A stretch of 64,000 nucleotides of DNA. Source: Phlebopus portentosus (Eukaryota > Basidiomycota > Agaricomycetes > Boletales > Boletinellaceae). Within the stretch, counting starts at the first letter, position 1, and each line of letters starts with the position of its first letter. The DNA is taken from positions 248,001-312,000 of the forward strand of contig JAYXKI010000004.1 of the NCBI GenBank assembly GCA_037892935.1, read 5' to 3'. A program made the position numbers and the translations under genes. Below are positions 2-51,479 of the stretch, piece by piece. The notes under the pieces were generated by a model. The model made no database searches and was not told the DNA's origin. It saw only the letters and a program-made list of their open reading frames with translations.

Positions 2-1270
2 GTAATGGATACGTTGAAGAGTTTTCAGGTTACGCTCGACGCCCTGAGCAAGGGGAACGTTCCACATCGACCAGGGGCGGAACGCAGCGAAACTCCGCGA
101 AACCCAGTTTGCAACTTCTGCGGCGAAGCAGGACACTATATTCAATTGTGTACAAAGGTTCTCAAGTACATCCAAGCTGGAAAGTGCGTTAGGAGCCCGG
201 ATGGAAGGATTGTGTTGCTGAACGGCGGTCTCATTACAAGGTCGCTACCGGGGAACAATCTCAAAGAACGAATCGATAGCTTTCACGCTAAAGCTCCGGC
301 AACGCACACAGTAGGAATGGTCGAGTCGGTTGCACCCACATATAGCCATCAAGCTGGTCCAGCGTACGCATATAGTCACGACGAAGAAGATCAGGACGAG
401 CAGGAAAACTATGACATCGAACGTTTGGAGATTTTGATTAACGAGGCGAAGAAGAAGGCAGCTGGTGGACGAAGAACGAAGCCCGATGGCGTAGAGATCC
501 CTAGAGTTCAGCCTCATAAGAAGGCGCAGGCGAAACCGCAGCCCACGCCACCGAGTGGCGCGCGGCCCTCGACAAGGTCACTCCAGTCACCGCAGCAGGA
601 CGACATTACCAGGAAATCACAACCCCAGTATAAATACGTCGTACCAATAGAAGACTCGAGCGCAGTCTCCAATGTTCTGACTTGTACCCTCGATACCCCT
701 ATCACCATCAGTCAACGTGAACTCCTTTTGATCGCCCCAGACGTTAGAAAACAGATGAAGGAGTTGACGACGGCGAAGAGATACAATGCGGCAGAAGTCA
801 AATATGGTGAGGTCGTGGATGATTCACTTACGTTACAAGTTGGGTGTTTCGCGTCGGAACAAGTTGAAACAGGCAAAACGCTTTCGACGGAAGAAATACT
901 GGCGCTCAGTGGACAAGGCGTTGCCGCAGAGGCATCCATGCCCCTCAGGACCGTTAGCGCGTTGATTGAAGACACTCTGGAAGTCGAATGCGTGCTCGAC
1001 CAGGGAGCCGTAGTGTGTCTGCTCCGCGAAGACGTATGGGAGAAGCTTCAGATACCCCTATCCCCTGACAAAGGGATGATCCTCGAGACAGCAGACGCAG
1101 CTAGGTCATCTACCATCGGCATGATCTCTAACGCGAAGTTCACGATAGCCGGAATTGACGTTTCGCTCCAAGTGCAAGTCGTTCCGAATGCTCCCTTCCA
1201 GGCTTTGTTGGGGAGACCGTTTTTTGCTATTACGGAGTGCGAAATGAAGGATTACATGTCAGGTGACTAA
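2..1270 (+). CDS. gag: Gag-aspartic protease of Gypsy copy A (partial, early stop)
   Basis: C-terminal part of the capsid/nucleocapsid/protease polyprotein; the reading frame enters from the left edge. A CCHC zinc knuckle (CNFCGEAGHYIQLC, CX2CX4HX4C) lies near residue 37, followed by a charged linker and a retroviral-type aspartic protease with the catalytic triad as VLDQGA and a later LLGRPFF segment. Compared with copies B and C, the stop at 1268-1270 is a CAA-to-TAA change; without it the frame would run to the TGA at 1385-1387. The stop lies about 90 nt before the putative frameshift site, so this copy should make little or no Gag-Pol fusion. Confidence 0.9.
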   Translation, partial: VMDTLKSFQVTLDALSKGNVPHRPGAERSETPRNPVCNFCGEAGHYIQLCTKVLKYIQAGKCVRSPDGRIVLLNGGLITRSLPGNNLKERIDSFHAKAPATHTVGMVESVAPTYSHQAGPAYAYSHDEEDQDEQENYDIERLEILINEAKKKAAGGRRTKPDGVEIPRVQPHKKAQAKPQPTPPSGARPSTRSLQSPQQDDITRKSQPQYKYVVPIEDSSAVSNVLTCTLDTPITISQRELLLIAPDVRKQMKELTTAKRYNAAEVKYGEVVDDSLTLQVGCFASEQVETGKTLSTEEILALSGQGVAAEASMPLRTVSALIEDTLEVECVLDQGAVVCLLREDVWEKLQIPLSPDKGMILETADAARSSTIGMISNAKFTIAGIDVSLQVQVVPNAPFQALLGRPFFAITECEMKDYMSGD

Positions 1271-4200
1271 CATATCACCTTAACGGACCTGAACAATCAC
1301 AGAAAGCAAAGCAAAGTGGCCACCGGAATTCGAATGATCACGCGAGGACCATTTCCAAAGGGTTTTCCGCAAGCGTCGAGGAACTGATTGAGAGAAATCG
1401 GCGAGACGAGAATGGTAGTAACCAATTGCCGGTTCAGGTATTTTCTTATGATTTCGAATTTATTTCACACATGATCCCATCTCTTTTCAACCAACGATTG
1501 CCTTATTTATTAAACAAAAATTGCTATACTACTGACAAAGATGAATGGTCATATCGTTCATGTGTTTTAGAAACCCCAGAAGAAGAAGAAGAAGACGCGG
1601 CAGTAATGGCTTACAAACGAGTAGCGCAGAAAGTCAGGCCGATCCCGGGAGTCCTTCCAGAAGAGTACAGGATTGTACAAAGGCAGCATCTGGATCCATT
1701 GAGAGGGATGCCCGAGATGCCAGTTGTACCGAAGCCGTTCAAACCCACGGGTCGTGTAACCACTGAAAGGATGGAAGCACTGAAGATCGACGAGAATACC
1801 TTTCTGTGGCCGGCGGAGAGGTTGTTAGTGAAGAATCTAATTATGTTGCAGGAAGAAGCATTAGCATGGACCGAATCCGAACGCAGAACACTCGATCCGA
1901 CGTATTTCGACCTGATACGCATTCCCACAATACTGCATATACCGTGGCAGCACAAGAGCATTCCAATTCCCCCAGGAATTCATGACAAGGCCCTCAAACT
2001 TATTCGAGAGAAGATTTGCAACGGGGTTATTGAACCGTCGAATTCGTCGTATCGATCCAGATGGTTTTGCTTGGTAAAGAAAGACAAAGAAATGTTGCGA
2101 TCCATCATCGACTTGCAGGATCTTAATGCGGTTACAGTTAAGGACTCGGCAGTACTACCGAACGTCGAAACGATCGCAGAGAGTAGTGGAGGACGAGCTT
2201 GTTACACGGAGTTGGATTTATTTGTTGCCTTCGACCAAAGAAAGCTTGACGAACATTCACGAGATCTTACTACATTCCAGACACCCTTGGGAACATTTCG
2301 AATGACGGTTCTACCAATGGGATACACCAATTCCTTGCAGATTATGCATAACAACGTGGCCTTTATCCTTCAGGATGAGATTCCGCACGTTACGAACCCT
2401 TTCGCAGACGATGCGCCCGGTTTAGGTCCGAAATTGCGATACGAGCTACCAGACGGTTCGTACGAGACAATATCGGGAAACTCCGAGATTCGTCGTTTCG
2501 TGTATGAGCACATATGCGATGTGAACAGGATTTTGCAGCGAATAAAGGCCGTAGGAGGAACATTTTCAGGGAAGAAGTTGGTTCCATGTGTGGAGTCAGC
2601 CGTATTCGTTGGACACAAGTTGACGTACCAGGGATGCGAGCCAGACGATTCGAAAGTACAGAAGATACGAGATTGGCTGCCATGTAGAACGCTGACGGAA
2701 GTCCGAGAATTTCTGGGAACGGTAGGAGTCCTTCAGATTTTCGTCAAGGATTATTCGAAACTCGCTCGCCCGTTGTACCGCATGACAAGGAAGAACCAGA
2801 TTTTCACGTGGACAGACGAAGAACAGAACGCAATGGACGAACTAAAGCAAGTCGTTATTATTTGCCCAGCACTGTGCGCAATCGACTACACGTCAGACAA
2901 CGAAGTAATACTGGCGGTAGACTCGTCTATTATTGGAGTTGGTTGGTATTTAGGACAAGAGCACTCGGATGGAAGGCGTAGAATCAATCGTTTCGGTTCT
3001 ATTAACTGGAATCAGACCCAGGCATCGTATTCACAGCTGAAAATCGAGTTATACGGCTTATTTTGGGCACTGCACGCGATGCGACTGTATCTCATCAGAG
3101 TCCGGAATCTAGTAGTCGAAATGGATGCTGCATACATCAAGGGGATGATCAACAATCCCGACCTGCAGCCCAATGCGACCATTAACAGATGGATCGCAGG
3201 TATCCTTCTCTTCAGTTTCAAGCTCAGACACATCCCAGCAGCCGATTTCTGGTGTACCGATGGATTATCCAGACGAAGAGCAGCTGAAGAAGACCCCCCT
3301 CTGGATGAAACGTACGAAGAATGGGTAGACGAAACGTACAGTTTTGCGATAGAAGAGCCAGTTTCGACATACCAAGTAGTGCAACAGAGCGGAACACCTA
3401 GCGAAACAGCGACCGAGAACCTATTTCCTTCTACGGAATCCGCGAGAAGGAAGGATAGCCGCTTAGATGATGTCACGAAGCTAATCACGCATCTCACACG
3501 CCCAGACAATCTTAGCGATAGTGGCTATGCAAAGCTAATCAGGTATGCAGCTGACTTCTTCGTGAAGGGAGGCCGTCTATGGAGAAAAGCGCGGAACGGC
3601 CAGCACCAAGTCGTAATAGAAGCAAAACGCAGGTGGGACCTAGTTAAGCAAGCTCACGACAATCTAGGACACAAAGGAATTTTCTGCACTCAAATGCGAC
3701 TGCTGGAGAGATTTTGGTGGCCGTCCTTAGGACAGGACGTGAAGTATTTCGTGCGCACCTGTCATGAGTGCCAGATACGCCAGACGAAGAATATTCTTAT
3801 CCCACCGAACGTACCGGAGGTAGCCCCTCTGTTTCAACGCATCCATATTGACTCGAAGGTCATGCCGAAATCGAGTGGATTCCGATATATCGTGCATGCG
3901 CGTTGTTCGTTAACCGCGTATCCCGAATTTAGACTTCTTCGTGAAGAAACTGGTAAAACCGTAGGCCAGTTTATCTTCCAGAACCTTTTGTGTCGATATG
4001 GAGCATGCCCCGAACTCGTTACCGATAACGGCACACCATTCGTTGCCGCGCTAGATTACTTGAAGACGCGGTATCACATCAACCACATTCGGATTTCGTC
4101 ATACAACTCACACGCAAATGGATTAGTCGAACGCAGACATTTCGACGTACAGGAAGCCTTGATTAAAGCTGCAGACGGTAATGACAAGCGTTGGAGTGAT

Positions 4201-4815
4201 CACGCTGACTCGGTATTTTGGGCAGAAAGAATCACGATCAACAGAGCAACAGGAATGTCCCCGTATTACATGGCCCATGGAGTTGAAGCAGTTTTGCCTT
4301 TCGACCTCGCAGAAGCAACATACCTGGCACCGCCGCTCGATTCGCCAGTTACGACGTCGGAACTCATCGTAATATGTGCGAAACAACTCCAGAAACGTCC
4401 AGAAGAGTTGGATCGCGTTGCGAAACTCATCATGAATGCAAGGCATGCATACGCGAAGCAGTTCGCCGAGGTGGAGAAGCATAGAATCAAGGACTACGAC
4501 TTTCAGCCAGGAAGCCTCGTACTCTTGCGAAACACGCGCATCAAGATGGAACTCAATCGTAAAACGAAACCCCGCTATTTAGGCCCCTACGTGGTAGTTC
4601 GACGCACCCAAGGCGGTTCGTATATCGTCGCCGAACTCGATGGAGCGGTTTCGAAACTCCGAATAGCAGTGTTTCGCCTGGTTCCGTACTTCCCGCGTTC
4701 GCATTTGACTGTTCCGGTGACCAAGCTCATTGGATCGGACGAAGATGATGACATACCCGAAATAGAAGATTCGCCAGAGAAGTTCCCTGACGATGAGTCC
4801 CAAAATTCCGATTAA
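1267..4815 (+). CDS. pol: Pol polyprotein of Gypsy copy A (RT, RNase H, integrase)
   Basis: Uninterrupted frame of about 1180 codons, -1 relative to gag and without a clear ATG at its head, which fits expression by frameshift. Numbering from codon 1426: reverse transcriptase near residues 180-400 with YTELDLFVAFDQ at about 260 and an active site written FADD (about 326) instead of the usual Y[VLI]DD. RNase H follows with AVDSS near 498 and EMDAAYIKG near 565. The integrase has the HHCC zinc module (HDNLGHKG ... CHEC, about 744-780) and a DDE core: IHID about 807, TDNG about 866, VERRH about 902. A GPYVV segment near 1055 marks a GPY/F module; I see no chromodomain. It ends in an acidic tail. 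Confidence 0.93.
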   Translation, partial: LTYHLNGPEQSQKAKQSGHRNSNDHARTISKGFSASVEELIERNRRDENGSNQLPVQVFSYDFEFISHMIPSLFNQRLPYLLNKNCYTTDKDEWSYRSCVLETPEEEEEDAAVMAYKRVAQKVRPIPGVLPEEYRIVQRQHLDPLRGMPEMPVVPKPFKPTGRVTTERMEALKIDENTFLWPAERLLVKNLIMLQEEALAWTESERRTLDPTYFDLIRIPTILHIPWQHKSIPIPPGIHDKALKLIREKICNGVIEPSNSSYRSRWFCLVKKDKEMLRSIIDLQDLNAVTVKDSAVLPNVETIAESSGGRACYTELDLFVAFDQRKLDEHSRDLTTFQTPLGTFRMTVLPMGYTNSLQIMHNNVAFILQDEIPHVTNPFADDAPGLGPKLRYELPDGSYETISGNSEIRRFVYEHICDVNRILQRIKAVGGTFSGKKLVPCVESAVFVGHKLTYQGCEPDDSKVQKIRDWLPCRTLTEVREFLGTVGVLQIFVKDYSKLARPLYRMTRKNQIFTWTDEEQNAMDELKQVVIICPALCAIDYTSDNEVILAVDSSIIGVGWYLGQEHSDGRRRINRFGSINWNQTQASYSQLKIELYGLFWALHAMRLYLIRVRNLVVEMDAAYIKGMINNPDLQPNATINRWIAGILLFSFKLRHIPAADFWCTDGLSRRRAAEEDPPLDETYEEWVDETYSFAIEEPVSTYQVVQQSGTPSETATENLFPSTESARRKDSRLDDVTKLITHLTRPDNLSDSGYAKLIRYAADFFVKGGRLWRKARNGQHQVVIEAKRRWDLVKQAHDNLGHKGIFCTQMRLLERFWWPSLGQDVKYFVRTCHECQIRQTKNILIPPNVPEVAPLFQRIHIDSKVMPKSSGFRYIVHARCSLTAYPEFRLLREETGKTVGQFIFQNLLCRYGACPELVTDNGTPFVAALDYLKTRYHINHIRISSYNSHANGLVERRHFDVQEALIKAADGNDKRWSDHADSVFWAERITINRATGMSPYYMAHGVEAVLPFDLAEATYLAPPLDSPVTTSELIVICAKQLQKRPEELDRVAKLIMNARHAYAKQFAEVEKHRIKDYDFQPGSLVLLRNTRIKMELNRKTKPRYLGPYVVVRRTQGGSYIVAELDGAVSKLRIAVFRLVPYFPRSHLTVPVTKLIGSDEDDDIPEIEDSPEKFPDDESQNSD
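1360..1366 (+). promoter_or_regulatory. Putative -1 ribosomal frameshift heptamer GGGTTTT
   Basis: The gag frame reads AAG GGT TTT here, which gives the canonical X XXY YYZ layout. A -1 slip continues as GGG TTT TCC into the open pol frame. The pol frame is open from 1267 and the undamaged gag frame would end at 1387, so the overlap of about 120 nt contains the site 18 nt before the gag stop codon. The same heptamer, in the same phase, is present in copy B (19133-19139) and copy C (minus strand, near 28520-28530). I have not folded the downstream RNA for a stimulatory structure. Confidence 0.55.
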
Positions 4816-5261
4816 ATCATTCATTTCCCTTCATATATGCTCCTTACTCATTTCCGATTCTCTCTCTCTCCTCTGATCAATTCTAATCTTCCAATTCTCC
4901 TTCTATAGTTTCGTCTCTGCTAGCGTGATCCACAATAGGATCTAACGCGTGTACTTTTACTTAATACGCAGTTCCGCACGGTTTCGCCGTTCAAAACAGC
5001 GGAACGACGGCGAAACGCCTCAATTCACTTCGTATCAGTTTCCTTTCATCTTATTCCTTGAATTCTTTGATCTATTCTTCTAGTCATCACTCAGTCTCGC
5101 TCGATCACACGAAAATTCACAAAAACCGAAACAAAATCGTATAAATTAACTATAAAAACAACTATGTACAGTACAAGTTATTTTTCTTTTTCTTTTGTCC
5201 TTTTCTTTTTCTATTTTACAAAAGTCCGACCAGGACATAGAGCATACGCGATGATTATACT
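4816..5261. other. Intergenic region between convergent pol and antisense gene
   Basis: Tail-to-tail gap of 446 bp. No ORF is evident. It contains pyrimidine-rich stretches, a T-rich run next to the antisense stop, and at about 4973-5018 a cluster of GTTCCGC/GTTTCGCC and their inverted forms GCGGAAC/GGCGAAAC around a short spacer. The same segment is present in copy B (22583-23025). It probably holds 3' ends for both transcripts, but no definite polyadenylation signal was identified. Confidence 0.6.
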
Positions 5262-7598
5262 CTATTCCCGAGCCCTACCTTTCCCCTTCGACTGACGAAC
5301 CCTCTCCACTTCCCCTCTATCTTCCTCTTCCTCGTCTTCACCTTCCCCCATCTTCACCCCAGCCAACTCGAGCAGCAGACGACGATCCGCGTGCGCCTGC
5401 GCTACGAGGACGCTGAATTCGTTCAGCATCCGGGACAGGACCTTGTCCCGGTGATCCATCCGCGCCAGCACAAACTGCAGCTCGGATTCCCCGACCTCCC
5501 GCTGCAGAGCCTCATGCTCGACGCAACCACCCACAGATCTGGCCGCCAGAGCCGTGACTTTCCGGCGTTTTGCTTCCCGATCGCGCGCCTCCCAAGCTGC
5601 CTTACGCTTTGCGGCTACAGCCCTGCCCTTCGTGGCTAGACTACAGCCCTTCGCCTGCTTCAAGCACGGAGCGCAGGTCCTCTGCGGAAGACCCACGCAA
5701 TCACGGCCACACTTCTGGCACTGGTCGCACGGAACCCGATGACGAACGCGCCCATCGCCCAATCGTTCGTCACCATCGTCGTCGTCGTCGTCGTCGTCAT
5801 TATCGTTGTCGTCACCTCCAGAACCTCCACCATTAGCCGGAATCCTAGAAGGACCAGCCTCAGGTTGAGACGACGCTCGTCGTGCCGGAGAAACGCGTCT
5901 CGCTTGCGTTTCGACAGTTTCGCGTGGAACAGCAGCAGTACCGCTATTGTTGTTGTTGTTGTTGCTGTTGTTGTTGTTGCTCGCGGTATTGAGAGCCTGA
6001 ATCTCTTCAAGGCTTGCGTCCGCCTCAAACGGCTCATTCGCCTCCATTCCCACATCACCGATATCCATTCCTCCATCGCCTGGACTCATGACAACGGAGT
6101 CTTCTCCCCGATGACCAGGAGGAGGACTCTCAGGACTTTCCTGAATCGCAGGAGTCTCCTCGTCCGAGTCCACCACTTGCCGAACACCACGAACGCGGCG
6201 AGTCCCTGCATCCAGCCGTCGTCGCATGTTGGCCTCGATTTCGGCAGCCATCCGGGAGATTTCGGCGCGTTGAGCAGCGTGTTCCTCTTCTTCACGTCTT
6301 TCACTCTCGCGAAGCTCAATCTCGAGCATTGTAGGTTCGAGTGAGGTTAAGAGTGTAGAACGGCTAGCCCCTTCCAAACGTTCCGCTCCGGTTTCGAGCG
6401 TTTCGACCGGTTCCGCGACCTCTCCGTCCTCAATCATTTCGCCAGTTTCGACCTGGAGAGGAGCGGAATCAACCTCCATTGGACTATCGACGTCCTGAGG
6501 CAGCATTTGATGTTGCTGCTGTTGTTGTTGTTGCGGAGGAAATGGTTCAGGCAGCATTGGTTGTTGCTGCTGTTGTTGTTGCGGAGGAAATGGTTCAGGC
6601 AGCATTGGTTGTTGCTGCTGTTGTTGTTGCGGTTGAGAGAAAGGTTCAGACAGCACTTGTTGGGATCGTTGTTGTTGCTGCTGTTGTTGTTGCGTTTCGG
6701 ATTCCTGAGCACGAACGAGTTGATAGAGCCGACGACGAAGAATGGAATAGCCGTAGTATTCCCAGAGGAGCCGGACCGTTCTCAATTTCACCCTGTTGAT
6801 GCGAAGGATGTGCCCTGCACGAAGGTGTCGTTGCTCGATATCCTCCCAATATTCGAACGCTTGCTGTAGGAAGGATTAGATGGAGATGATAGACAAGAAG
6901 AAGTACCTACGTGACTCCGGACAGCTTCGTCTCGCGTGTAGTCCGTGTTGCCGGTGAACCTCGCCGTTTGTTGGAACTTGGAGCTCTCCATTCTCACGTT
7001 CTCGAGAGCCTTTTCGATGTCAGGGCGCGGTTTCGGAAACATTGGAGGGAACGATTCGCCCAAGAAGAACCCACGAATCAAATCGAACGAGGCAGGATGG
7101 AATGGAACCCTGCGTCTGCGGAAGAAAGCTCGTCGTTTGGTCTCCATCCTGGCGTAAAATTCCCGTCGATCATAGTACAGCATCCGTAGGAGAGCGTCCA
7201 TGTCGCAGTAGTTGGAGTACGCCATCTCTGACCAGACTTCTTTCGTTCCTTTGGGACGGACTTGCTCCAACGCTTCCTTCCGTGCCTGTCGAATTTCGTT
7301 AACAAAAATTCTTGATTAGAGTGCGCGGTTTACGCACCGTGGTTGCCTTCCACCCATCCATCAAAGATTCCATCACCGGATTCGTCAACCACCGAACCGT
7401 CATCGAACCTGTAGGCGCGATCCATTCGACCGGTTTTGTCTTATCCGGCAGAATTACCGTCGTGACGCCATGGTCTAGTTCATCCATTGCCGACCTGGCC
7501 AAGGCCACGTCTGCCTCGAATTTCACGACCGCTGCCTTCCAGTCATCATTGGAGTTGATGGGTCCCAAGAGCGCGATGATTTCTTCGGAAGTGAACAT
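5262..7598 (-). CDS. Spliced antisense gene of Gypsy copy A: Zn2Cys6-like, Gln/Asn-rich, probably nuclear protein
   Basis: Convergent to pol, between pol and the 3' LTR. Three exons join in frame: 7598-7338, 7285-6911 and 6863-5262. The introns are 52 bp (GTGCGT...ACAG) and 47 bp (GTAGGT...ACAG), each with a plausible branch site (TTAAC, CTAAT). The product is about 745 aa. Exon 1 starts MFTSEEIIALLGP; exon 2 is basic and Arg/Phe-rich; exon 3 has Gln tracts (about 270-325), Asn runs, an Asp run (about 563-580), six cysteines at 591, 594, 601, 609, 612 and 619 (CX2CX6CX7CX2CX6C, the Gal4-type Zn(II)2Cys6 spacing), a basic KRK/KRRK stretch like a bipartite nuclear signal, a possible coiled coil and an acidic-basic tail. 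The ATG is 129 nt from the LTR, so transcription may start in or near the LTR. The function is unknown; DNA binding is an inference from the cysteine pattern. The cluster lies near the C-terminus, unlike most Gal4-type factors. Confidence 0.75.
6511..6692 (-). repeat. In-frame Gln-rich minisatellite in antisense gene A
   Basis: Units of about 48 nt encode a run of Gln followed by PMLPEPFPP or a close variant. Copy A carries two extra units relative to copy B (about 24279-24362), where one Gln block joins directly to the next segment. All length changes keep the frame. Confidence 0.8.
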
Positions 7599-7726
7599 GT
7601 TGGAGAATGAAGAAGAGATGACAGCGGAAGAAAATTTGGACGCGACGCGTTATGCTTCGAAACTCCCACGCGTCGGATTGAGATGGGAGTGACCGCGGAC
7701 GGTCACTATTTCATGAACCCGGGAGA

Positions 7727-9355
7727 TGAAGAGTAAGTCTGAAGCTTGGGAACGTACGGAGTCGTTACGACCAGTTCCGTGGTGTTCCGACTGGTTTCGC
7801 TCGGTTTCGACTGGTTTCGCTCGAATGAGTGAACTTAGCAAGAACGCCATAGTCCAAATGGCACGTGCACCGTTCTTTGATCGGCCATCAAGACGGGAGA
7901 ATCACGGCATCGAGTTTGCACGCGTCGATCACAAGTCTCCGGACCTCGGATCCGCATTCCAGACAAAGAGATTTGACCCTGCAACCTCGTCCTCAGTCCC
8001 TCTCCTTTGTTAAACATCGCAGACTTACTTTGTCAGGCTAGCCAGAGCCCTTCCGAGTCGTTTCCCCGAGTTCCACTTCGTTCCGCTCAAAGAGACCCGG
8101 TTCCGAAGGTTCCGCACATATTCTGACCTTTCTATATGCGTCCCCTTTATTCCATTATGCTCTCGTTCCAGACATGCTTAGTATTGTTTCTTTTGACCTA
8201 TATGTCCCTTAAACCATTCATATGCGCTCCTCTCCTTTGTAGATAGCGATATGCGTTCCCTTTTCTTTATGACGTAGGTTCTCTGACCGCTGGGAGGCTC
8301 AGTCTTGGACGTATATTATAAATATAGCACGACTCTCGTAGTAGAGGGGGAGCTTAGTCGGAGCTGAGTGGGGAGCTTAGCTTGCAGTTCTCACATCGTC
8401 TCAAAGCCTCTCGACCTCTAGTCTACTTGTTCGTAGTGGACTCTCTCATCTCTATAGTCTAATATACGACATTTCGTGTTCTGTACAGTCGATCGGTGAT
8501 CTCTCTTCGCAGTAGAGCCGTTCGTGCGTTCGTATAGTTCACCGTCATCGTATAAAGGCTTCTCTATCTTCTCTCACCCGAAATAAGACCCCCTCACGTG
8601 TTTCGATCCGTTTCGCCCGGTTTCGCTCGTAACCCAGTTACTCTGCGTGCCACTCGCATTCGGTCTCGCAACACCTTCCCCTCTCCAGTGTCGTCGGGAA
8701 AGGACACCATATCACCCCTTTCCTCCCGACTTTCCACTCTCCGCTTCCTCAAGACCAGCCCGGTGCTATTCCGCATCGTTTAGATCGGAAACGTTCGGTT
8801 TCATCGTCCCACACGTATCCTTTGATTCTCTCAGTCCCCTTCCGTCATCGTTTCGCACCTCCATCCCTCGCATCACATTTCGACACACTCAGCAATTGTC
8901 CTTCGTCCATCGAATCGCGTTTCGAATTGTTACGCCGTGTTCCGACACTTTAGACTACGAGTGAGATCGGCTGCAGTCGCTTACCAGTGTGTTAGCACAG
9001 TCGATTAGTCACGTTCGGGTTGGTGGTTCGACTAGCGTAGCCTAGTTAGTTTAGTTCTTGTGCCTTGGGTTAGTCGGCTTTAGTCCAGAGCTCGCAGCTG
9101 AGCCGGAGAGTCGATTTTGCCTTTGCACCGCCACCGTCGATCTCGGGAGAAGCCTACCCTCAGAATTCCTCCTCGAGCGCTTCCCTCATATCCCCGGTTC
9201 TCACCAAGCCCTTCCATTGTTTATCCCTATTTCCCTCCATTCCTTCGTGCCCTTAGCGCGGGTGTAGCTCTCTGCAGACCGCTTGAAGGTATTCTAGGGC
9301 AGCCCCTCGAACTATACACTCCCTGTCCGGCATCAGAACGTCCACAGGAGTTTCA
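7727..9355 (+). repeat. 3' LTR of Gypsy copy A
   Basis: About 1629 bp, starting TGAAGAGTAAG and ending AGGAGTTTCA (TG...CA). It follows AACCCGGGAGA, a weak polypurine tract shared with the other copies. It matches the LTRs at 25395-27021, 31021-32649 and 35855-37476 throughout. Many GGTTTCG and GTTCCG motifs lie near its start and at about 8050-8110 and 8600-8630. Short ORFs in the U5-like part are not conserved as proteins and are not called genes. Confidence 0.92.
8317..8324 (+). promoter_or_regulatory. LTR TATA box (copy A)
   Basis: TATAAATA about 590 bp into the LTR, followed by the conserved CTCGTAGTAG segment. It is found at the same place in LTRs B, C and the solo LTR, and as TATAAATA in both LTRs of the diverged element D. 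This makes it the likely core promoter for genomic RNA. Confidence 0.7.
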
Positions 9356-23025: not shown

Positions 23026-25266
23026 CTATTCCCGAGCCCTACCTTTCCCCTTCGACTGACGAACCCTCTCCACTTCTCCTCTATCTTCCTCTTCCTCGTC
23101 TTCACCTTCCCCCATCTTCACCCCAGCCAACTCGAGCAGCAGACGACAATCCGCGTGCGCCTGCGCTACGAGGACGCTGAATTCGTTCAGCATCCGGGAC
23201 AGGACCTTGTCCCGGTGATCCATCTGCGCCAGCACAAACTGCAGCTCGAATTCCCCGACCTCCCGCTGCAGAGCTTCATGCTCGACGCGACCACCCACCA
23301 ATCTGGCCGCCAGAGCCATGACTTTCCGGCATTTTGCTTCCCGATCGCGCACCTCCTGAGCTGCCTTACGCTTTGCGGCTACAGCCCTGCCCTTCGTGGC
23401 TAGACTACAGCCCTTCGCCTGCTTCAAGCACGGAGCGCAGGTCCTCTGCAGAAGACCCACGCAATCACGGCCATGCTTCTGGCACTGGTCGCACGGAACC
23501 TGATGACGAACACGCCCATCGCTCAATCGTTCGTCACCATCGTCGTCGTCGTCGTCGTCGTCATTATCGTTGTCGTCACCACCAGAACCACCACCATTAG
23601 CCGGAATCCTAGAAGGACCAGCCTCAGGTTGAGAAGACGCTCGTCGTGCCGGAGAAACGCGTCTCGCTTGCGTTTCGACAGTTTCGCGCAGAACAGCAGC
23701 AGTACCGCTATTGTTGTTGTTGTTGTTGCTGTTGTTGTTGTTGCTCGCGGTATTGAGAGCCTGAATCTCTTCAAGGCTTGCGTCCGCCTCAAATGGCTCA
23801 TTCGCCTCCATTCCCACATTACCGATATCCATTCCGCCGTCGCCTGGACTCATGATAACGGAGTCTTCTCCCCGATGACCAGGAGGAGGACTCTCAGGAC
23901 TTTCCTGAATCGCAGGAGTCTCCTCGTCCGAGTCCACCACTTGCCGAACACCACGAACGCAGCGAGTCCCTGCATCCAGCCGTCGTCGCATGTTGGCCTC
24001 GATTTCGGCAGCCATCCGGGAGATTTCGGCACGTTGAGCAGCGCGTTCCTCTTCTTCACATCTTTCACTCTCGCGAAGCTCAATCTCGAGCATTGTGGGT
24101 TCGAGTGAGGTTAAGGGTGTAGAATGGCTTGCCCCTTCCAAACGTTCCGCTCCGGTTTCGAGCGTTTCGACCGGTTCCGCGACTTCTCCGTCCTCGATTG
24201 TTTCGCCAGTTTCGACCTGAAGAGGAGCGGAATCAACCTCCATTGGACTATCGACATCCTGAGGCAGCATTTGATGTTGCTGCTGTTGTTGTTGTTGCGG
24301 CTGAGAGAAAGGTTCAGACAGCACTTGTTGGGATCGTTGTTGTTGCTGTTGTTGTTGTTGCGTTTCGGATTCCTGAGCACGGACGAGTTGATAGAGCCGA
24401 TGACGAAGAATGGAATAGCTGTAGTATTCCCAGAGGAGCTGGACCGTTCTCAATTTCACCCTGTCGATGCGAAGGATGTGCCCTGCACGAAGGTGTCATT
24501 GCTCGATATCCTCCCAATATTCGAACGCTTGCTGTAGGAAGGATTAGATGGAGATGATAGACAAGAAGAAGTACCTATGTGACTCCGGACAGCTTCGTCT
24601 CGCGTGTAGTCCATGTTGCCGGTGAACCTCGCCGTTTGTTGGAACTTGGAGCTCTCCATTCTCACGTTCTCGAGAGCCTTTTCGATGTCAGGGCGCGGTT
24701 TCGGGAACATTGGAGGGAACAATTCGCCCAAGAAGAACCCACGAGTCGAATCGAACGAGGCAGGATGGAATAGAACCCTGCATCTGCGGAAGAAAGCTTG
24801 TCGTTTGGTCTCCATCCTGGCGTAAAATTCCCGTCGATCGTAGTACAGCGTCCGTAGGAGAGCGTCCGTGTCGCAGTAGTTGGAGTACGCCGTCTCCGAC
24901 CAGACTTCTTTCGTTCCTTTGGGACGGACTTGCTCCAACGCTTCCTTCCGTGCCTGTCGAATTTCGTTAACAAAAATTCTTGATTAGAGTGCGCGGTTTA
25001 CGCACCGTGGTTGCCTTCCACCCATCCATCAAAGATTCCATCACCGGATTCGTCAACCACTGAACTGTCATCGAACCTGTAGGTGCGATCCATTCGACCG
25101 GTTTTGTCTTATCCGGCAGAATTACCGTCGTGACGCCATGGTCTAGTTCATCCATTGCCGACCTGGCCAAGGCGACGTCTGCCTCGAATTTTGCGACCGC
25201 TGCCTTCCAGTCGTCATCGGAGTTGATGGGTCCCAAGAGCGCGACGATTTCTTCGGAAGTGAACAT
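23026..25266 (-). pseudogene. Antisense Zn2Cys6-like gene of copy B (second splice donor mutated)
   Basis: Same three-exon layout as copy A. Intron 1 is at 24954-25005 with intact sites. Intron 2 is at 24532-24578, but its donor reads ATAGGT where A has GTAGGT, so normal splicing should fail. All three exons stay open. The Gln-repeat block is shorter than in A. The cysteine cluster reads CDQCQKHGRDC then CAPCLKQAKGC: the six Zn2Cys6 positions are kept, while the extra cysteine of A (residue 597) is His here, so that one is not part of the pattern. Confidence 0.75.
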
Positions 25267-25394
25267 GTTGGAGAATGAAGAAGAGATGACAGTGGAAGAA
25301 AATTTGGACGCGACGCGTTATGCTTCGAAACTCCCACGCGCCGGATTGAGATGGGAGTGACCGCGGACGGTCACTATTTCATGAACCCGGGAGA

Positions 25395-27021
25395 TGAAGA
25401 GTAAGTCTGAAGCTTGGGAACGTACGGAGTCATTACGACCAGTTCCGCGGTGTTCCGACTGGTTTCGCTCAGTTTTGACTGGTTTCGCTCGAACGAGTAG
25501 ACTTAGCAAGAACGCTATAGTCCAGATGGCACGTGCACCGTTCTTTGATCGGCCATCAAGACGGGAGAATCACGGCATCGAGTTTGCACGCGTCGATCAC
25601 AAGTCTCCAGACCTCGGATCCGCATTCCAGACAAAGAGATTTGACCCTGCAACCTCGTCCTCAGTCCCTCTCCTTTGTTAAACATCGCAGACTTACTTTG
25701 TCAGGCTAGCCAGAGCCCTTCCGAGTCGTTTCCCCGAGTTCCGCTCCGTTCCGCTCAAAGAGACCCAGTTCCGAAGGTTTCGCACGTATTCTGACCTTTC
25801 TATATGCATCCCCTTTAATCCATTATGCTCTCATTCCAGACATGCTTAGTATTGTTCCTTTTGACCTATGTGTCCCTTAAACCATTCATATGTGCTCCTC
25901 TCCTTTGTAGATAGCGATATGCGTTCCCTTTTCTTTATGACGTAGGTTCTCTGACCGCTGGGAGGCTCAGTCTTGGACGTTTAGTATAAATATAGCACGA
26001 CTCTCGTAGTAGAGGGACAGCTTAGTCGGAGCTGAGTGGGAGCTTAGCTTGCAGTTCTCACATCGTCTCAAAGCCTCTCGACCTCTAGTCTACTTGTTCG
26101 TAGTGGACTCCCTCATCTCTATAGTCTAATATACAATATTTCGTGTTCTGTACAGTCGATCAGTGATCTCTCTTCGCAGCAGAGCCGTTCGTACGTTCGT
26201 ATAGTTCGCTGTGATCGTACATAGGCTCTTCTTACTTCTCTTACCCGAACCGAAACCTCCTTTCGTATTCCGAACTGTTTCGCCCGGTTTCGCTCGTAAC
26301 CCAGTTACTCTGCGTGCCGCTCGCATTTGGTCTCGCAACACCTTCTCCTCTCCATAGTCGTCGGGAAAGGACACCATATCACCCCTTTCCTCTTGACTTT
26401 CCACTCTCTGCTTCCTTAAGACCAGCCCGGTGCTATTCCGCATCGTTTCGATCGGAAACGGTCGGTTTCATCGTCCCACACATATCCGTCGATTCTCTCA
26501 GTCCCCTTCCGTCATCGTTTCGCACCTCCATCCCTCGCATCACATTTCGACTCACTCTCCAATTGTCCTTCATCCATCGTATCGCGTTTCAAACCGTTAC
26601 GCCGCGTTCCGACACTTTAGACTACGAGTGAGATCGGCTGCAGTCGCTTACCAGTGTGTCAGCACAGTCAATTAGTCACGTTCGGGTTGGTGGTTCGACT
26701 AGCGTAGCTTAGTTAAATTAGTTCTTGTGCCTTGGGTTAGTCGCTTTAGTCCAGAGCTCGCAGCTGAGCCGGAGAGTCGATTTAGCCTTTGCACCGCCAC
26801 CGTCGATCTCGGGAGAAGCCTACCCTCGCAATTCCTCCTCGAGCGCTTCCCTCATATCCCCGGTTCACACCAAGCCCTTCCATTGTATATCCCTATTTCC
26901 CTCCGCTCCTTCATGCCCTTAGCTCGGGTGTAATTCTCTGCTGACCATTTGAAGGTATTCTAGGGCAGCCCCTTGAACTATACACTCCCTGTCCGGCATC
27001 AGAACGTCCAAAGGAGTTTCA
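25395..27021 (+). repeat. 3' LTR of Gypsy copy B
   Basis: TGAAGAGTAAG ... AGGAGTTTCA, 1627 bp, after the same GAACCCGGGAGA tract as in A. It differs from LTR A mainly by transitions. Confidence 0.92.
25985..25992 (+). promoter_or_regulatory. LTR TATA box (copy B)
   Basis: TATAAATA, same position and downstream CTCGTAGTAG context as in LTR A. Confidence 0.65.
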
Positions 27022-28580
27022 GCGCACAGCGCAGGGCAAAGAATAACGGCTTGCTTTAGTTTGTCCATTGCGTTCTGTTCTTCGTCTGTCCACGTGAAAA
27101 TCTGGTTCTTCCTTGTCATGTGGTACAACGGGCGAGCGAGTTTCGAATAATCCCTGACGAAAATTTGAAGGACTCCTACCGTTCCCAGAAATCCTCTGAC
27201 TTCCGTCAGCGTTCTACATGGCGGCCAATCTCGTATCTTCTGTACTTTCGAATCGTCTGGCTCGCGTCCCTGGTACGTCAACTTGTGTCCAACGAATACG
27301 GCTGACTCCACACACGGAACCAACTTCTTTCCTGAAAACGTTCCTCCTACGGCCTTCATTCGCTGCAAAATTCTGTTCACATTGCATATATGCTCATACA
27401 CGAAACGACGAATCTCGGAGTTTCCCGGTATGGTCTCGTACGAACCGTCTGGTAACTCGTATTGTGATTTCGGACCTAAACTGGGCGCATCATCTGCGAA
27501 AGGGTTCGTAACGTGCGGAATCTCGTCCTGAAGGATAAAGGCCACATCGTTATGCATAATCTGCAAGGAATTGGTGTATCCCATTGGTAGAACCGTCATT
27601 CGAAATGTTCCCAAGGGTGTCTGGAACATAGTAAGATCTCGTGAGTGTTCGTCAAGCTTTCTTTGGTCGAAGGCAACGAATAAATCCAACTCCGTGTAAC
27701 AAGCTTGTCCTCCACTACTCTCTGCGATCATTTCGACGTTCGGTAGTACTGCCGAGTCCTTAACCGTAACCGCATTAAGATCCTGCAAGTCGATGATGGA
27801 TCGCAACGTTTCTTTGTCTTTCTTTACCAAGCAAAACCATCTGGATCGATACGACGAATTCGACGGTTCAATAACCTCGTTGCAAATCTTCTCTCGAATA
27901 AGTTCAAGGGCCTTGTCATGAATTCCCGGGGGAATTGGAATGCTCTTGTGCTGCCACGGTATATGCGGTATCGTGGGAATGCGTATCGGGTCGAAATACA
28001 TCGGATCGAGTGTTCCGCATTTGGATTCGGTCCATGCCAATGCTTCTTCCTGCAACATAATCAGATTCTTCACTAATAACCTCTCCGCCGGCCACAGAAA
28101 GGTATTCTCATCGATCTTCAGTGCTTCCATCCTTTCGGCGGTTACACGACCCGTGGGTTCGAATGGCTTTGGTACAACTGGCATCTCGGGCATCCCTCTC
28201 AATGGATCCAGATGCTGCCTTCGTATGATCCTGTATTCTTCTGGAAGGACTCCCGGGATCGGCCTGACTTTCTGCGCTACTCGTTTGTAAGCCATTACTG
28301 CCGCGTCTTCTTCTTCCGGGGTTTCTAAAACACAGGAACGATATGACCGTTCTTCTTTGTCAGTAGTATAGCAATTTTGGTTTAATAAATAAGGCAATCA
28401 TTGGTTGAAAAGAGATGGGATTTTGTGTGAAATAAATTCGAAATCATAAGAAAATACCTGAACCGGCAATTGGTCACTACTATTTTCGTCTCTCCGATTT
28501 CTCTCAATCAGTTCCTCGACGCTTGCGGAAAACCCTTTGGAAGTGGTCCTCACACGATCGTTCGAATTCCGGTGGCCACT
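27022..28580 (-). pseudogene. pol: Pol of copy C, 5' part (RT), truncated
   Basis: RT domain with FADDAPSLGP. It stops being pol at CPALCA, where LTR B starts. A TGA at 28398-28400 (CGA in A, in the NQRLPYLL stretch) blocks the early frame. Confidence 0.9.
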
Positions 28581-30901
28581 TTGCTTTGCTTTCTGCGATT
28601 GTTTGGGTCCGTTAAGGTGATATGTTGGTCACCTGATGTGTAATCCTTCATTTCGCACTCCATAATAGCGAAAAACGGTCTCCCCAACAAAGCCTGGAAT
28701 GGAGCGTTCGGAACGACTTGGACTTGGAGCGAAACGTCAATCCCGGCTATCGTGAACTTCGCATTAGAGATCATGCCAATGGTAGATGACCTAGCTGCGT
28801 CTGCTGTCTCGAGGATCATTCCTTTGTCAGGGGATAGGGGTATCTGAAGCCTCTCCCATACGTCTTTGTGGAGCAGACACACTACGGCTCTCTGGTCAAG
28901 CACGCATTCGACTTCCAGAGTGTCTTCAATCAATGCGCTAATAGTCCTGAGGGGCATGGATGCCTCTGCGGCGATGCCTTGTCCACTGAGCGCCAGTATT
29001 TCTTCCGTCGAAAGCATTTCGCCTGTTTCGACTTGTTCCGATGTGAAATGCCCAACTTGTAATGTAAGTGAATCATCCATGACCTCACCATATTTGACTT
29101 CAGCCGCGTTGTATCTCTTCGCCGTCATCAGCTCCTTCATCTGTTTCCTAACGTCTGGGGCGATTGAGAGGAGTTCTCGTTGGCTGATGGTGATAGGGGT
29201 ATCGAGAGTACGAGTTAGAACGTTGGAGACTGCGCTCGAGTCTTCTATTGGTACAATGTATTTATACTGGGGTTGTGATTTCCTGGTAATGTCGTCCTGC
29301 TGCAGTGACTGGAGTGACCTTGTCGAGGGCCACGCGCCACTCGGTGGCGCAGGCTGCAGTTTCGCCTGCGCCTTCTTATGAGGCTGAACTCTAGGGATCT
29401 CTACGCCATTGGGCTTCATTCTTCGTCCACCAGCTGCCTTCTTCTTCGCCTCGTTAATTAAAATCTCCAATTGTTCGATGTCGTAATTTTCCTGCTCGTC
29501 CTGATTTTCTTCATCGTGACTATATGCGTATGCTGGACCAGCTTGATGGCTATATGTGGGTGTGACTGACTCGACCATCCCTACTGTGTGCGTTGCCGGA
29601 GCTTTAGCATGAAAGCTATCGATTCGTTCTTTGAGATTGTTCCCCGGTAGCGACCTAGTAATGAGACCGCCGTTCGGCAACACAATCCTTCCATCTGGGC
29701 TCCTAATGCACTTTCCGGCTTGGATGTACTCGAGAACCTTTGTACATGATTGAATATAGTGTCCTGCTTCGCCGCAGAAGTTGCAAACTGGGTTTCGCAG
29801 AGTTTCGCTGTGTTCCGCCCCTGGTCGATGCGGAATGTTCCCCTTGCTCAGGGCGTCGAGCGTAACCTGAAAACTCTTCAACGTATCCAATACCTTGGCC
29901 AAATCCACTTCTTCCTTCTTCACGATACTTGTCGAAGCTTCTCCGGTAGCTGGGGGTGGAAAGTTACTGCCGAAACTGCCCACAATCTTTCCTCCCAGCA
30001 CGAAATTCGAATGTTCGAGCACGTCCTTAATCTTGTAAGGCGTAGACGAATCGTGGTCTGGCAGCTTAATCTTGATACGACGAATGAGCACCTCTCTAAG
30101 GTCTCCTGTAATTCCCATCAGGAACATCTCGTCAGCTTGGGACTCCAAGATCTTTCCGTTCGATATAAGATACTTAGAGCGCCTGATGAATTCTCGATGA
30201 TATTCGCCTAGGTCTTCTCGGTTCTTGATCCCTTTCTTCGCCCGTTCTACGACCAAATGCTCCAGTTCTCCCTTGGAGTAGCATTTCCCTGCCGTGAGAC
30301 TCGGGTATAGAGCTATAATCTCTCTCTTCACCGTCTCCACATCAGTGTTCGGGTCGTTAATCTCGTCGGTAGTCTCCCAAAGTTCCGCGACGTCGGTCTT
30401 CGCATAGTACAAGAACTTTTGAACGTGATCTCTATCGTTCCACGCGGCCTGTCTTGCGATTTCTGCAACGTCTTTGAAGAACCTAGGGAGTTCCTTTGGT
30501 TCTGAGCCGTCAAACATTGGGGCACGTTTGTCCCCACGCGAGGGCAGTTGGTACGCCATTGCGGTTTGTCGATTTGTAAGTTGTTGTAATACGTTAGTGT
30601 TAGCAGACAGACGAGCTATTATCGCTGCGTTGCTGGCTAAGATCTGTTGAGTTCCGGTAGGTAGTTGATAATTGGTAGGCGGGCTAGCTGGTCTGTTCGG
30701 TGATCCTGGGGTGGAAGCTAGCACGGATGAGAGGTTGGGGAGTTCTGAATCGGCGATGGTAGATGGGAAATGATCTAGGGAATCGGTGTTGAAAGGAATG
30801 GCACTAACGGATTGTCGCAAGGGTGTTTTGCTGTGTTCCGCGTTTTCTGTAGTGGAACGTAGATTGCGATTGACAATCCTCGGCCTTCGAGTCGGCGGCA
30901 A
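28550..30901 (-). CDS. gag: Gag-protease of copy C (most complete gag; early stop)
   Basis: About 780 codons. The N-terminal part (PPTRRPRIVNRNLRS..) is Ser/Pro-rich; the capsid region starts near residue 122 (GDKRAPMFDGSEPKELPRFF); the zinc knuckle is CNFCGEAGHYIQSC and the protease site VLDQRA, where the Gly of the DxG motif in A is replaced by Arg, so the protease may be inactive. The stop at 28550-28552 is CGA-to-TGA and lies before the GGGTTTT site. No ATG was found at the head: the frame is open further up to a TGA in the leader, and HQxLP just before it is also kept in element D, so the true start is unresolved. Confidence 0.85.
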   Translation of the reverse strand: MPPTRRPRIVNRNLRSTTENAEHSKTPLRQSVSAIPFNTDSLDHFPSTIADSELPNLSSVLASTPGSPNRPASPPTNYQLPTGTQQILASNAAIIARLSANTNVLQQLTNRQTAMAYQLPSRGDKRAPMFDGSEPKELPRFFKDVAEIARQAAWNDRDHVQKFLYYAKTDVAELWETTDEINDPNTDVETVKREIIALYPSLTAGKCYSKGELEHLVVERAKKGIKNREDLGEYHREFIRRSKYLISNGKILESQADEMFLMGITGDLREVLIRRIKIKLPDHDSSTPYKIKDVLEHSNFVLGGKIVGSFGSNFPPPATGEASTSIVKKEEVDLAKVLDTLKSFQVTLDALSKGNIPHRPGAEHSETLRNPVCNFCGEAGHYIQSCTKVLEYIQAGKCIRSPDGRIVLPNGGLITRSLPGNNLKERIDSFHAKAPATHTVGMVESVTPTYSHQAGPAYAYSHDEENQDEQENYDIEQLEILINEAKKKAAGGRRMKPNGVEIPRVQPHKKAQAKLQPAPPSGAWPSTRSLQSLQQDDITRKSQPQYKYIVPIEDSSAVSNVLTRTLDTPITISQRELLSIAPDVRKQMKELMTAKRYNAAEVKYGEVMDDSLTLQVGHFTSEQVETGEMLSTEEILALSGQGIAAEASMPLRTISALIEDTLEVECVLDQRAVVCLLHKDVWERLQIPLSPDKGMILETADAARSSTIGMISNAKFTIAGIDVSLQVQVVPNAPFQALLGRPFFAIMECEMKDYTSGDQHITLTDPNNRRKQSKVATGIRTIV

Positions 30902-42463: not shown

Positions 42464-43836
42464 TGTAAGAAGCATCAACACATTAGGTCTGAGATCATGC
42501 ATGTGACACATATTCTGCAGTAATCTGCATCATAACAGCAGAACTCAGTGGAGATCGACTCAATTCAAAGTAGAATGGACTACTGTAGTCTCTTACATTT
42601 GACCACTGTGTAGGAAGAACTTTCAACACTCAGAATCTACTAAGAGCAGCCAATCAGACATTTGAGCTACCCAGCCGAAAACTTACAAAGGCTGACTTAG
42701 CTAGCCCATCTTACTAAAACCCAGGCATGAGAGATAAATTGAAGGATCTGCAATTAGCCCCCAATGCTCCCAAGCTTCAACCCAATGTAATTCACTCCAG
42801 CTTTTCCCTTTTGAGTCTCATATGCATTCATATTTTGTTTTGTCTCCCTATAATCCTTATGCTCATCATTCTGTATGTACTTACATTTCGTATTGTACTC
42901 TATAGTTATTGTGCTCATTACCTTCCAGATATGCTCATCTCGTCTTTTGTTTCTCATGTATTCCCTTATGTTTATCACTTTCAATTTCTTTTCGTTATGC
43001 TCCCTGATGTCCGAAGGCTCAGGTTCAGATAATGTTATAAATAGATATGCTACTTGTAGTAGGAGCTCAGTTTTGGAGCCTGAAACAGCTCAGTATAGAG
43101 TTCAGTTCAGACTAGAAACCCACTCTTGCTACAGTTGAGATCAATTCAACTTTTCCTGTACTCACTTTGACTCTCTATCTCCTGCAAATACATAATAGTT
43201 CTGACTTATACATCTTGAGTCTTCTGCTCTGCAGTTGTACCTAAGCTAAGTGCAATCAGTTTGACCCATGTTGAAGTTTGAGACCCTCGTCACTTTTTCT
43301 TACACCCCTACACAAAGTCTCACTTAAGTCTTTTGTATATCACTTCATTCTATATCGTATTGCTTTATTTTATTTTAAAACCCATCGTAACTTATCATAA
43401 CTTGTTATAACTCATTATATCATATTGGATCCTCATAAGGATTACCTCCATATCATCATTGCTTAGGAGAAGTCCTTCTCTAAGCTTCATCTCATTGACT
43501 CCTGCCTCTAGAGTTAGAATTCATCAAGGGATTATCTGTGAGGACATTATTTACCTTTGCACCACTACCATTGATCCCCCTCACTTTGACTTCTCTCGCT
43601 TTGCTTCTTTGCCTATCTCCTTTGATCCAATCCCCCCCTTGTATACATTCAGCAGCCTTCAATCTCATTTCTTCTCCATCCCTTCCAGAACTGCTCTGGA
43701 AACTAGATCAACACATCAGTCCTACTAAAGTATTCTCCTAAAGTCACCCTTCTCTTTCCCACTCGTCTTGATCTTACTAAACAGCCCCCAAGAACTGTGA
43801 CACTCCTCAGCTATCAGACTGTTTATAGGAGTTTCA
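42464..43836 (+). repeat. 5' LTR of element D
   Basis: 1373 bp. It shares the end AGGAGTTTCA and the downstream AGTGGAGCCCAC with the A/B/C family, but most of the body is unlike theirs. TATA box TATAAATA at 43036-43043. Confidence 0.92.
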
Positions 43837-50587: not shown

Positions 50588-51390
50588 TTACTCTTCCTCC
50601 TCACCCCTTACCACTCTTCCTAGTGTACTAGTCTTGGCTAGCATCTCCTCCGCCAGATTGTGCAGTTGATCTACAGTATGGAACAACACGCGCATGTGCC
50701 TCTTTAAGGCCACCATCCATAAATGGATGGCACTCTCATCTGTCCCAGCAACCAACTTCTCAATGTCACTCACCTCGAGGATAGGTACAACTGGCATCCT
50801 CAGCACCTGTACCATTATGTGCTGATGAGCTTCGGGCATCTTGCATTCTATCTGCTTATTCTGCAGGTGACATGCAGCCCTCCTGTATATAGCCAGCTTG
50901 TATCGCTGTCTGGACTTCATGTGACAGTAATCACAGGCCAGCCCAGAGAAACCCTCACAGACCTGGCCTGCCCTCACACACCTCTCACACCCCTTATTAT
51001 GCATAACCTAGCCACTGGCAGCAGACGAATTGCTGCTACTACTGCTACTACTGCTGCTATTCCCACCATCTCTTTGGCTTCCCTTGTCCTCTTCCACTTG
51101 TTTTGCACTCAGAGACTTGCTTGCAGCCAGAGGATTGCTCTTGCTGCTCTTGCTCTTGCTGACAGCACCATCTAGAAGAAAGAGAGGCACGTCATCAAAA
51201 GCTCCAAAATTGTCATCACCAGCTGGACCCCAACAGCTAGACCCCCAGAAGAGAAACCATTAGCAGCAGAAGGAATGTTGTTATTGCTGTTATTGTTGCT
51301 ATTATTGTTGCTGTTGTTGCTGTTGTTATTGCTATTGTTGGGACATAACGGAGAGAAGAGAGGATAGATAAATGGAACGTATTGCAAACT
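50588..51390 (-). pseudogene. Antisense gene of element D (short, Zn2Cys6-like remnant)
   Basis: Same position and orientation as the antisense genes of A and B. The open 3' part (51004-50588) reads KGCERCVRAGQVC then CDYCHMKS, i.e. CX2CX6CX7CX2C, exactly the spacing in A for the first five cysteines; the sixth is lost. A helical C-terminal half ends in EEEE. Upstream (51390-51010) are Asn/Ser-rich and Ser/Lys-rich stretches in other frames, matching the Asn-rich linker of A. Exons 1 and 2 of A have no visible counterpart. Confidence 0.65.
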
Positions 51391-51479
51391 GCATTTTATA
51401 CATCAAGAATTTTGAGATGCTGAGTCTAACCCTATAGGAGTGTGACTGCAGATAGTCACAATTTCAAGAACCTAGGAGA

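Follow-up and report, generated by a model that had tools for sequence, protein, structure and literature searches.

The window analysed here, 64,000 nucleotides of the Phlebopus portentosus genome (contig JAYXKI010000004.1, positions 248,001 to 312,000; G000:C4:248001-312000 in the searched assembly), contains a Gypsy-type retrotransposon with an additional gene on its minus strand, located between pol and the 3′ long terminal repeat (LTR). Three predicted exons of this antisense gene together encode 745 amino acids, and the gene is protein-coding and under purifying selection. Matching genes lie 3′ of pol in most members of three related Gypsy groups of the same genome, and the product carries a six-cysteine, Zn2Cys6-like cluster in its C-terminal part. 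On balance, we lean towards the view that the gene encodes a nuclear DNA-binding regulator that would act on the element's own copies.

Structure of the antisense gene and its copies

Exon 1 (7338..7598, minus strand, as for all parts of the gene; first base of the ATG at 7598), exon 2 (6911..7285) and exon 3 (5262..6863) are separated by intron 1 (7286..7337), which is 52 nt long, runs from GTGCGT to CAG and contains an in-frame TAA, and by intron 2 (6864..6910; 47 nt, GTAGGT to CAG). Read by eye, CTAAT precedes the acceptor in these short introns, and we take it to resemble fungal branch sites. Exon 3 encodes Gln tracts, an Asn tract, an Asp tract, the cysteine cluster, a basic run and a predicted C-terminal helix. 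The gene converges on pol, with the pol stop at 4815, the antisense stop at 5262 and a gap of 446 bp between the two (4816..5261). A preliminary description of this sequence had given the three exons, two introns, joined 745-codon frame and convergent layout, and every coordinate checked was recovered. The gene lies antisense to pol and between pol and the 3′ LTR, as do the aORF-3R genes of plant elements considered below. Only its position on the antisense strand allows the element to retain the introns.

Searching the genome (38.4 Mb, 23 contigs) with the 2337-bp region gave at least 43 matches, at least 33 of which span the query from end to end. One of these is the window's own (100%) and the other 32 have 90–98% identity; the numbers are lower bounds in that 40 of 85 candidates were scored. 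Exons, introns and frame were read in 26 of the 33 whole-query copies. The joined exons are free of internal stops in 19 of these 26, 17 of which keep GT..AG at both introns as well. Intron 1 is bounded by GT..AG in all 26 copies and intron 2 in 23, the remaining three having AT for GT, a CpG change. Exon lengths range from 2142 to 2262 nt and are a multiple of three in 25 of 26 copies; 18 of the 19 distinct gap runs in exons are divisible by three, and the two gap runs in introns are both 1 nt (intron 1 differs by 1 nt in three copies). The exon gap runs among copies include runs of 42–63 nt, all multiples of three. The Gln-tract region (6480-6700) is built from repeat units spaced about 48–51 nt.

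Database gene models of homologous Sanghuangporus proteins, compared by eye, bear on the junctions. P0002 (S. weigelae) and P0003 (S. sanghuang) span both as the joined frame does, although an internal piece of exon 1 is missing from the P0003 model. The second junction is matched by P0004 (S. baumii), which has one extra residue at the first, and by P0005 and P0006, whose models begin in exon 2. From these features we infer that the antisense gene is spliced.

Purifying selection on the antisense frame

In a reference-free test pooling pairwise comparisons of 25 of the 26 copies (the frameshifted L022 omitted), the ratio of nonsynonymous to synonymous substitution rates (dN/dS) of the antisense gene was 0.30. 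A neutral value between copies had been set beforehand as the refuting outcome, and the value found is not neutral. The other two frames of the antisense strand gave 1.12 and 0.85, and the three sense frames 0.87, 0.34 and 1.04. The sense frame at 0.34 (0.25 in another computation) is the mirrored frame, which has its third codon positions in common with the antisense frame; it contains 16 stops in exon 3, and its longest open stretch is 95 codons.

Shared variants, defined as those present in at least 2 of 22 copies with CpG sites excluded, comprise 22 nonsynonymous (N) and 38 synonymous (S) changes in the antisense gene. This is 0.22 of the expected N/S ratio, and none of 1000 simulations gave a value as low. 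The same measure was 0.07 for pol and 0.04 for gag-pro, and 0.23 for the antisense gene when all 26 copies were used. Within the 22-copy set, L032, L039 and L040 cover just 56–72% of the reference.

No shared non-CpG variants occur in the 88 intron sites. Intron constraint as such is not claimed, since the neighbouring exons 1 and 2 are also low (about 10 per kb) and local low diversity may account for the missing variants. Local low diversity may likewise explain the scarcity of shared variants in the 128 bp upstream of the ATG, 9.8 per kb vs. 68.6 in the LTR; singletons in the upstream region reach 78.4 per kb. Changes from C to T at CpG occur at 0.025 per base vs. 0.0089 at other C/G positions, about 2.8-fold more (22 copies).

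Distribution across Gypsy groups and relatives

Querying the genome with the C-terminal portion of pol produced 133 matches; 13 short pieces were set aside and the other 120 tabulated. We assigned these to four groups by pol identity (85–100%, 69–79%, 59–63% and 50–54%) and looked for the antisense gene within 4 kb 3′ of pol. A convergent antisense gene is present at 60 of 61 places in the first group, 23 of 25 in the second (pol about 76% identical) and 3 of 3 in the third (about 60%). Taken together, 86 of 89 tabulated pol places in the three groups have the gene, i.e., it occurs in most copies. In the fourth group none of the 31 pol places has a match to the antisense gene, although an unrelated antisense gene is possible there. 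Among tabulated antisense loci, 14 of 100 lack a pol partner. The simplest account would be a single gain in the common ancestor of the three groups, or else a loss in the fourth.

In a profile–profile comparison, the C-terminal half of the second-group antisense protein (L045, with the 577-aa P0007 as annotated relative) matches that of the first group at E 3.2e-11 and 97% probability; between the N-terminal halves, Gln tracts alone matched. Among second-group antisense matches, the first 15 rows have 98–100% protein identity and 12 of the 15 are free of stops; near-identical rows include C1:2061526, C10:606180 and C18:5251. This identity among the matches listed points to recent transposition of the second group. 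One locus, G000:C3:2959521-2959769, has a weak match to the cysteine domain (31%, E 1.7e-4) and no tabulated pol within 4 kb, and is possibly a host relative.

The database relatives found are exclusively hypothetical proteins of Sanghuangporus (Hymenochaetaceae), in searches that need common 5-residue words and that distant relatives could escape. Residues 1-270 and residues 580-730 each retrieved five Sanghuangporus rows (the former at E ≤ 0.001), and a third search with the second-group antisense protein retrieved three. Annotated relatives of either antisense protein occur in four Sanghuangporus species, among them S. sanghuang and S. weigelae, for which genome papers are available (PMC8537844, PMC10803629).

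A cysteine cluster resembling the Zn(II)2Cys6 domain

The cluster at residues 591-619 (5643..5729, minus strand) has the spacing CX2CX6CX7CX2CX6C, as the preliminary description had stated; to be corrected there is that the window copy carries an additional cysteine in the cluster (CQKC). The reading CQKC is found in the window copy and L042, and CQKR in 19 copies, among the 21 of 26 in which the motif was retrieved (the search expression did not retrieve it in L022, L040, L030, w2 and L043). In the second group the spacing is CX2CX6CX7CX2CX7C. The two groups are 33–36% identical over the cysteine region; a loop Gly and Pro and LA..GRA are common to both, and all six cysteines are invariant in six aligned sequences. 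The loop proline is, we assume, a feature common to fungal Zn(II)2Cys6 regulators. Both antisense groups fit CX2CX6CX5-12CX2CX6-8C, which we take to be the Zn(II)2Cys6 pattern. The cluster is followed by a basic run (residues 625-648; 5556..5627), predicted as a helix in the models of both relatives, and by a C-terminal region (residues 672-714; 5358..5486) in which a long helix is predicted at low confidence in P0002.

In Pfam searches of the excised domains, Zn_clus was the sole family found (E 0.25 and 2.6). The joined 745-aa protein gave no Pfam row at E ≤ 1. No row for TRP28 (Transposase 28, PF04195) appeared in the joined protein at E up to 1 or in the relatives at E up to 10, a search whose filters remove the majority of matches beyond roughly 0.1. 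A TFIIA row in P0003 (E 3.2e-7, below the cut-off) was taken as a low-complexity match. Genome-wide there are 27 Zn_clus matches, none of them, by eye, at the tabulated antisense loci. A profile of the six sequences matched three PDB entries at E ≤ 10, none significantly: Pho7 (E 0.15), C27B12.11c (E 0.2) and LAC9 (E 8.3). All three are fungal regulators, and presumably zinc-cluster proteins.

AlphaFold models of the relatives P0002 and P0007 both place a short helix at the first CX2C and a helix at the second, where the local predicted local distance difference test score (pLDDT) is 45–64 in one model and 80–84 in the other; it is 73–84 over P0007 residues 441-500 and 45–64 over the P0002 cluster. 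We regard the domain as Zn2Cys6-like, on the strength of its sequence pattern, and not as a member of PF00172. The earlier Zn(II)2Cys6 assignment is the weaker part of that description: the spacing, the invariant cysteines and the non-significant, regulator-only PDB matches argue for it, and a Pfam score below the cut-off argues against it.

A palindrome upstream of the antisense gene

The 128 bp between the antisense ATG and the 3′ LTR contain two ACGCGT boxes, 52 and 75 bp upstream of the ATG (7645..7650 and 7668..7673), and, between the gene start and the LTR, the palindrome GTGACCG-CGGA-CGGTCAC (7689..7706). The hexamer GGGAGA (7721..7726, plus strand), directly before the LTR, is by its position a possible polypurine tract. 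The second group likewise has two ACGCGT boxes, and its palindrome reads GTGACTG-CGGA-CAGTCAC, with both arms altered and the symmetry kept. Presumably CCG-N4-CGG fits an everted zinc-cluster site of the Leu3 type, and the CTG-N4-CAG of the second group does not.

Allowing up to 2 mismatches, the palindrome occurs at 82 sites in the genome, 81 of which lie upstream of an antisense gene and one elsewhere. The 81 comprise 64 first-group sites and 17 second-group sites, all 17 with identical letters. Among tabulated antisense hits, 64 of 66 from the first group and 17 of 24 from the second have the site. With up to 3 mismatches there are 102 sites, compared with 10 for a control pattern. The palindrome is intact in 21 of 22 first-group copies. 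When the two promoter regions were shuffled 5000 times, a 7-4-7 palindrome arose 22 and 27 times and two or more ACGCGT boxes 1 and 7 times, figures that are only a guide because both motifs were picked after looking. The palindrome and the purine tract form one 40-bp block, identical between the two groups at 35 of 40 positions, and the palindrome folds as an RNA hairpin in both (−10.1 and −8.6 kcal/mol). By eye, and among the matches listed, no match to the LTR-side block pattern lies near a fourth-group pol place. CACGTG boxes were also seen, inside the first-group LTR 135 bp from its start (7862 in the window) and, in the second group, close to the edge of the LTR (L046).

The element and its surroundings

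The element begins to the left of the window and ends with the 3′ LTR at 7727..9355 (plus strand, 1629 bp, TG...CA ends). Its gag-protease open reading frame (ORF; 5..1270, plus strand) has Pfam matches to DUF4100, a zinc knuckle and an aspartyl protease. The pol ORF (1426..4815, plus strand) matches RVT_1 (residues 218-331), RNase H (462-558) and the integrase zinc-binding domain Integrase_H2C2 (733-787); the Pfam search gave no row in pol for the integrase core itself. The order protease, reverse transcriptase, RNase H, integrase is that of Ty3/Gypsy elements.

Further members of this Gypsy family lie nested at positions 17411-37478. A second element, starting at 17411 or before and ending at 27021, carries a second antisense-gene copy (23026..25266, minus strand), which contains an internal stop and has lost its intron-2 donor. 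It is followed directly by an inverted partial copy (27022-30539) and by two further minus-strand LTRs, 31021-32649 and 35855-37478. The former of these also has TG...CA ends and the LTR at 25393-27021 agrees; that at 35855-37478 has TA as its 5′ terminus.

An older, third-group Gypsy element occupies 42464-52690, with LTRs near 42464 and 51480, stops in pol, a decayed antisense gene (50588..51004, minus strand) and a decayed palindrome (51442..51459) that reads GTGACTGCAGATAGTCAC. At the right end of the window (61256-62219) are inverted repeats, one with arms of 124 nt, 98% complementary and 65 nt apart, and another with arms of 109 nt, 94% complementary and 746 nt apart.

Proposed function and alternatives

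If the product is a regulator, antisense transcription would be driven by a promoter within the 128-bp stretch that separates the ATG from the 3′ LTR, or would start at the LTR edge, and the transcript would be spliced and translated into a nuclear protein. The Zn2Cys6-like cluster near the C-terminus, the basic run, a helix possibly pairing two chains and the Gln/Asn/Asp-rich stretches would be its working parts. The protein would bind DNA at element copies, foremost at the palindrome beside its own promoter, and binding would tune the protein's own level and set transcription of the element. We infer transcription, splicing, nuclear location, zinc binding, DNA binding and the target from sequence. 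Host methylation is a plausible opponent of the element, because its copies bear the CpG mutation mark. A more specific version is possible but doubtful: each group would have a dimeric, sequence-specific zinc-cluster regulator with its own palindrome, protein and site would co-diverge, and the ACGCGT boxes, which we take to resemble the MCB boxes of S-phase genes, would time expression to DNA replication. The preliminary proposal that the element encodes its own regulator keeps its foundation, a Gypsy element with a selected, intron-containing antisense gene; its zinc-cluster assignment has become weaker. As to its suggested action on the LTR, the candidate site lies in the region upstream of the antisense gene itself and outside the LTR.

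Several observations weigh against a regulator of this kind. Constraint on the antisense gene is weaker than on pol and gag, whose pooled dN/dS is 0.11 (pol) and 0.09 (gag-pro; 22 copies each). The singletons of the antisense gene, which are expected to lie nearer neutrality, give 0.54 of the expected N/S with CpG excluded (pol 0.26, gag-pro 0.45) and 0.76 with CpG included (0.57 and 0.52); they are under weaker constraint, yet not neutral. The Zn_clus matches reach 11.9 and 8.7 bits where the Pfam cut-off is 21, and the latter match spans half of the domain. The AlphaFold models are poor overall (mean pLDDT 45.7 for P0002 and 42.0 for P0007), and Foldseek and VIA fold searches, the latter run on the P0007 model only, yielded nothing usable, the matches listed containing no zinc-cluster regulator. 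As to the site, 7 of the 24 second-group hits lack it at up to 2 mismatches (four of the seven have, by eye, a three-mismatch site at a similar distance). The motif was not found in the LTR, and the second-group half-site is CAG, not the CGG that we take to be usual for zinc clusters. The symmetric change of the arms is one evolutionary event, whatever the copy number that shows it, and the palindrome, being close to the possible polypurine tract and able to fold as a hairpin, may instead have a part in reverse transcription.

This last point leads to an unlikely alternative, in which the protein acts in retrotransposition itself and not in transcription, for instance by chaperoning nucleic acids, choosing targets or helping the pre-integration complex to enter the nucleus, and the palindrome is a separate RNA or DNA signal for plus-strand priming. 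The conserved block that joins palindrome and purine tract beside the LTR, and the hairpin with its identical CGGA loop in both groups, would suit such a role, and functions of this sort have been proposed for antisense ORFs, as the available text of a review notes (PMC7264820). Separate antisense expression would be an odd route for a particle protein, however. Gln/Asn/Asp tracts and a zinc-cluster-like domain are commoner in regulators. Less probable again, and drawn by analogy, is an anti-silencing factor, a DNA-binding protein that would lift host methylation or chromatin silencing at family-specific sites. The excess of C-to-T change at CpG is as expected for methylated copies, and both site and protein differ between groups, but the palindrome was found once per copy, whereas the VANC anti-silencing proteins of plants target many sites.

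We find it quite improbable that the antisense RNA is itself the agent, through double-stranded RNA, RNA interference or interference with sense transcription, with the protein incidental. Antisense transcripts are discussed as regulators in other retroelements in the portion of the review available (PMC7264820), but the purifying selection is frame-specific and the gaps keep the frame. A captured host gene, carried as a passenger of no use to the element, has a slighter chance still: the weak, pol-less match on contig C3 could be a host relative, yet the gene sits at nearly all tabulated pol places of three groups and is selected. Chance open frames, i.e., no gene at all, we consider refuted. 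Low-complexity stretches can stay open and the mirrored sense frame has a low ratio; against this stand the annotated relatives in Sanghuangporus, and a shadow ORF is ruled out by the frame-specific selection, the in-frame gaps and the 16 stops of the mirrored frame.

Relation to known antisense genes

The preliminary description had cited antisense ORFs in some plant Gypsy elements but was aware of no case of this arrangement, a statement that proved too strong. The available text of a 2020 review (PMC7264820) covers antisense ORFs between pol and the 3′ LTR in Grande, RIRE2, Retand, PvRetro13 and the fungal Boty, an element of Botrytis/Sclerotinia. The plant Ty3/Gypsy cases, termed aORF-3R, are Grande gene23, RIRE2, Retand ORF4 and PvRetro13 (PMC7264820 and PMC11963269, as far as their accessible text goes). 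According to the same parts of the review, the Grande product is a nuclear protein with its own promoter, and the TRP28 domain of Retand is predicted to bind DNA (PMC7264820). The plant aORF-3R genes and Boty hold the same position as the gene described here, which, going by the descriptions, is set apart by its two introns, six-cysteine cluster and basidiomycete lineage, and has no TRP28, SMC or other Pfam match above the cut-off.

Human T-cell leukemia virus type 1 (HTLV-1) offers an analogy. In the available text of PMC3185765, its HBZ is encoded by a spliced antisense transcript that starts within the 3′ LTR, and is a basic leucine zipper (bZIP) protein and nuclear regulator that damps LTR transcription; the antisense proteins of HTLV-2 to -4 form a related system. 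The likeness lies in a spliced antisense gene near the 3′ LTR, here predicted from sequence, and in a nuclear regulator as its product, here proposed; the proteins belong to different classes, bZIP there and a cysteine cluster here.

Zn(II)2Cys6 clusters of the Gal4 type usually lie at the N-terminus. Fungal regulators such as LAC9 and Pho7 likewise have six cysteines at allowed spacing and a basic run after the cluster, whereas here the cluster is near the C-terminus and below the Pfam cut-off, and the second-group palindrome has no CGG half-site. The VANC proteins of Arabidopsis VANDAL elements, which are plant DNA transposons, are anti-silencing factors with family-specific motifs; an element-encoded DNA-binding factor co-diverging with a family-specific motif would, by analogy, be the same idea.

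Among the open-licence PMC papers listed in searches for a fungal or zinc-cluster case, none has a title or abstract opening that describes this arrangement. Within the reach of these searches, its novelty lies in the introns, the cysteine domain, the palindrome upstream of the gene and the occurrence in a basidiomycete lineage. The review calls, in its available text, for a search for antisense and spliced transcripts (PMC7264820). The plant literature has yet to settle what antisense Gypsy genes do. The present case adds a fungal, intron-containing example in which selection has been measured and for which a DNA-binding domain and a short target site can be put forward as candidates. Because both a candidate domain and a short candidate site are available, the question of function becomes testable in vitro. 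If regulator and palindrome do co-diverge, this Gypsy lineage would possess a fungal self-recognition system, equivalent in its logic to HBZ or to VANC anti-silencing.

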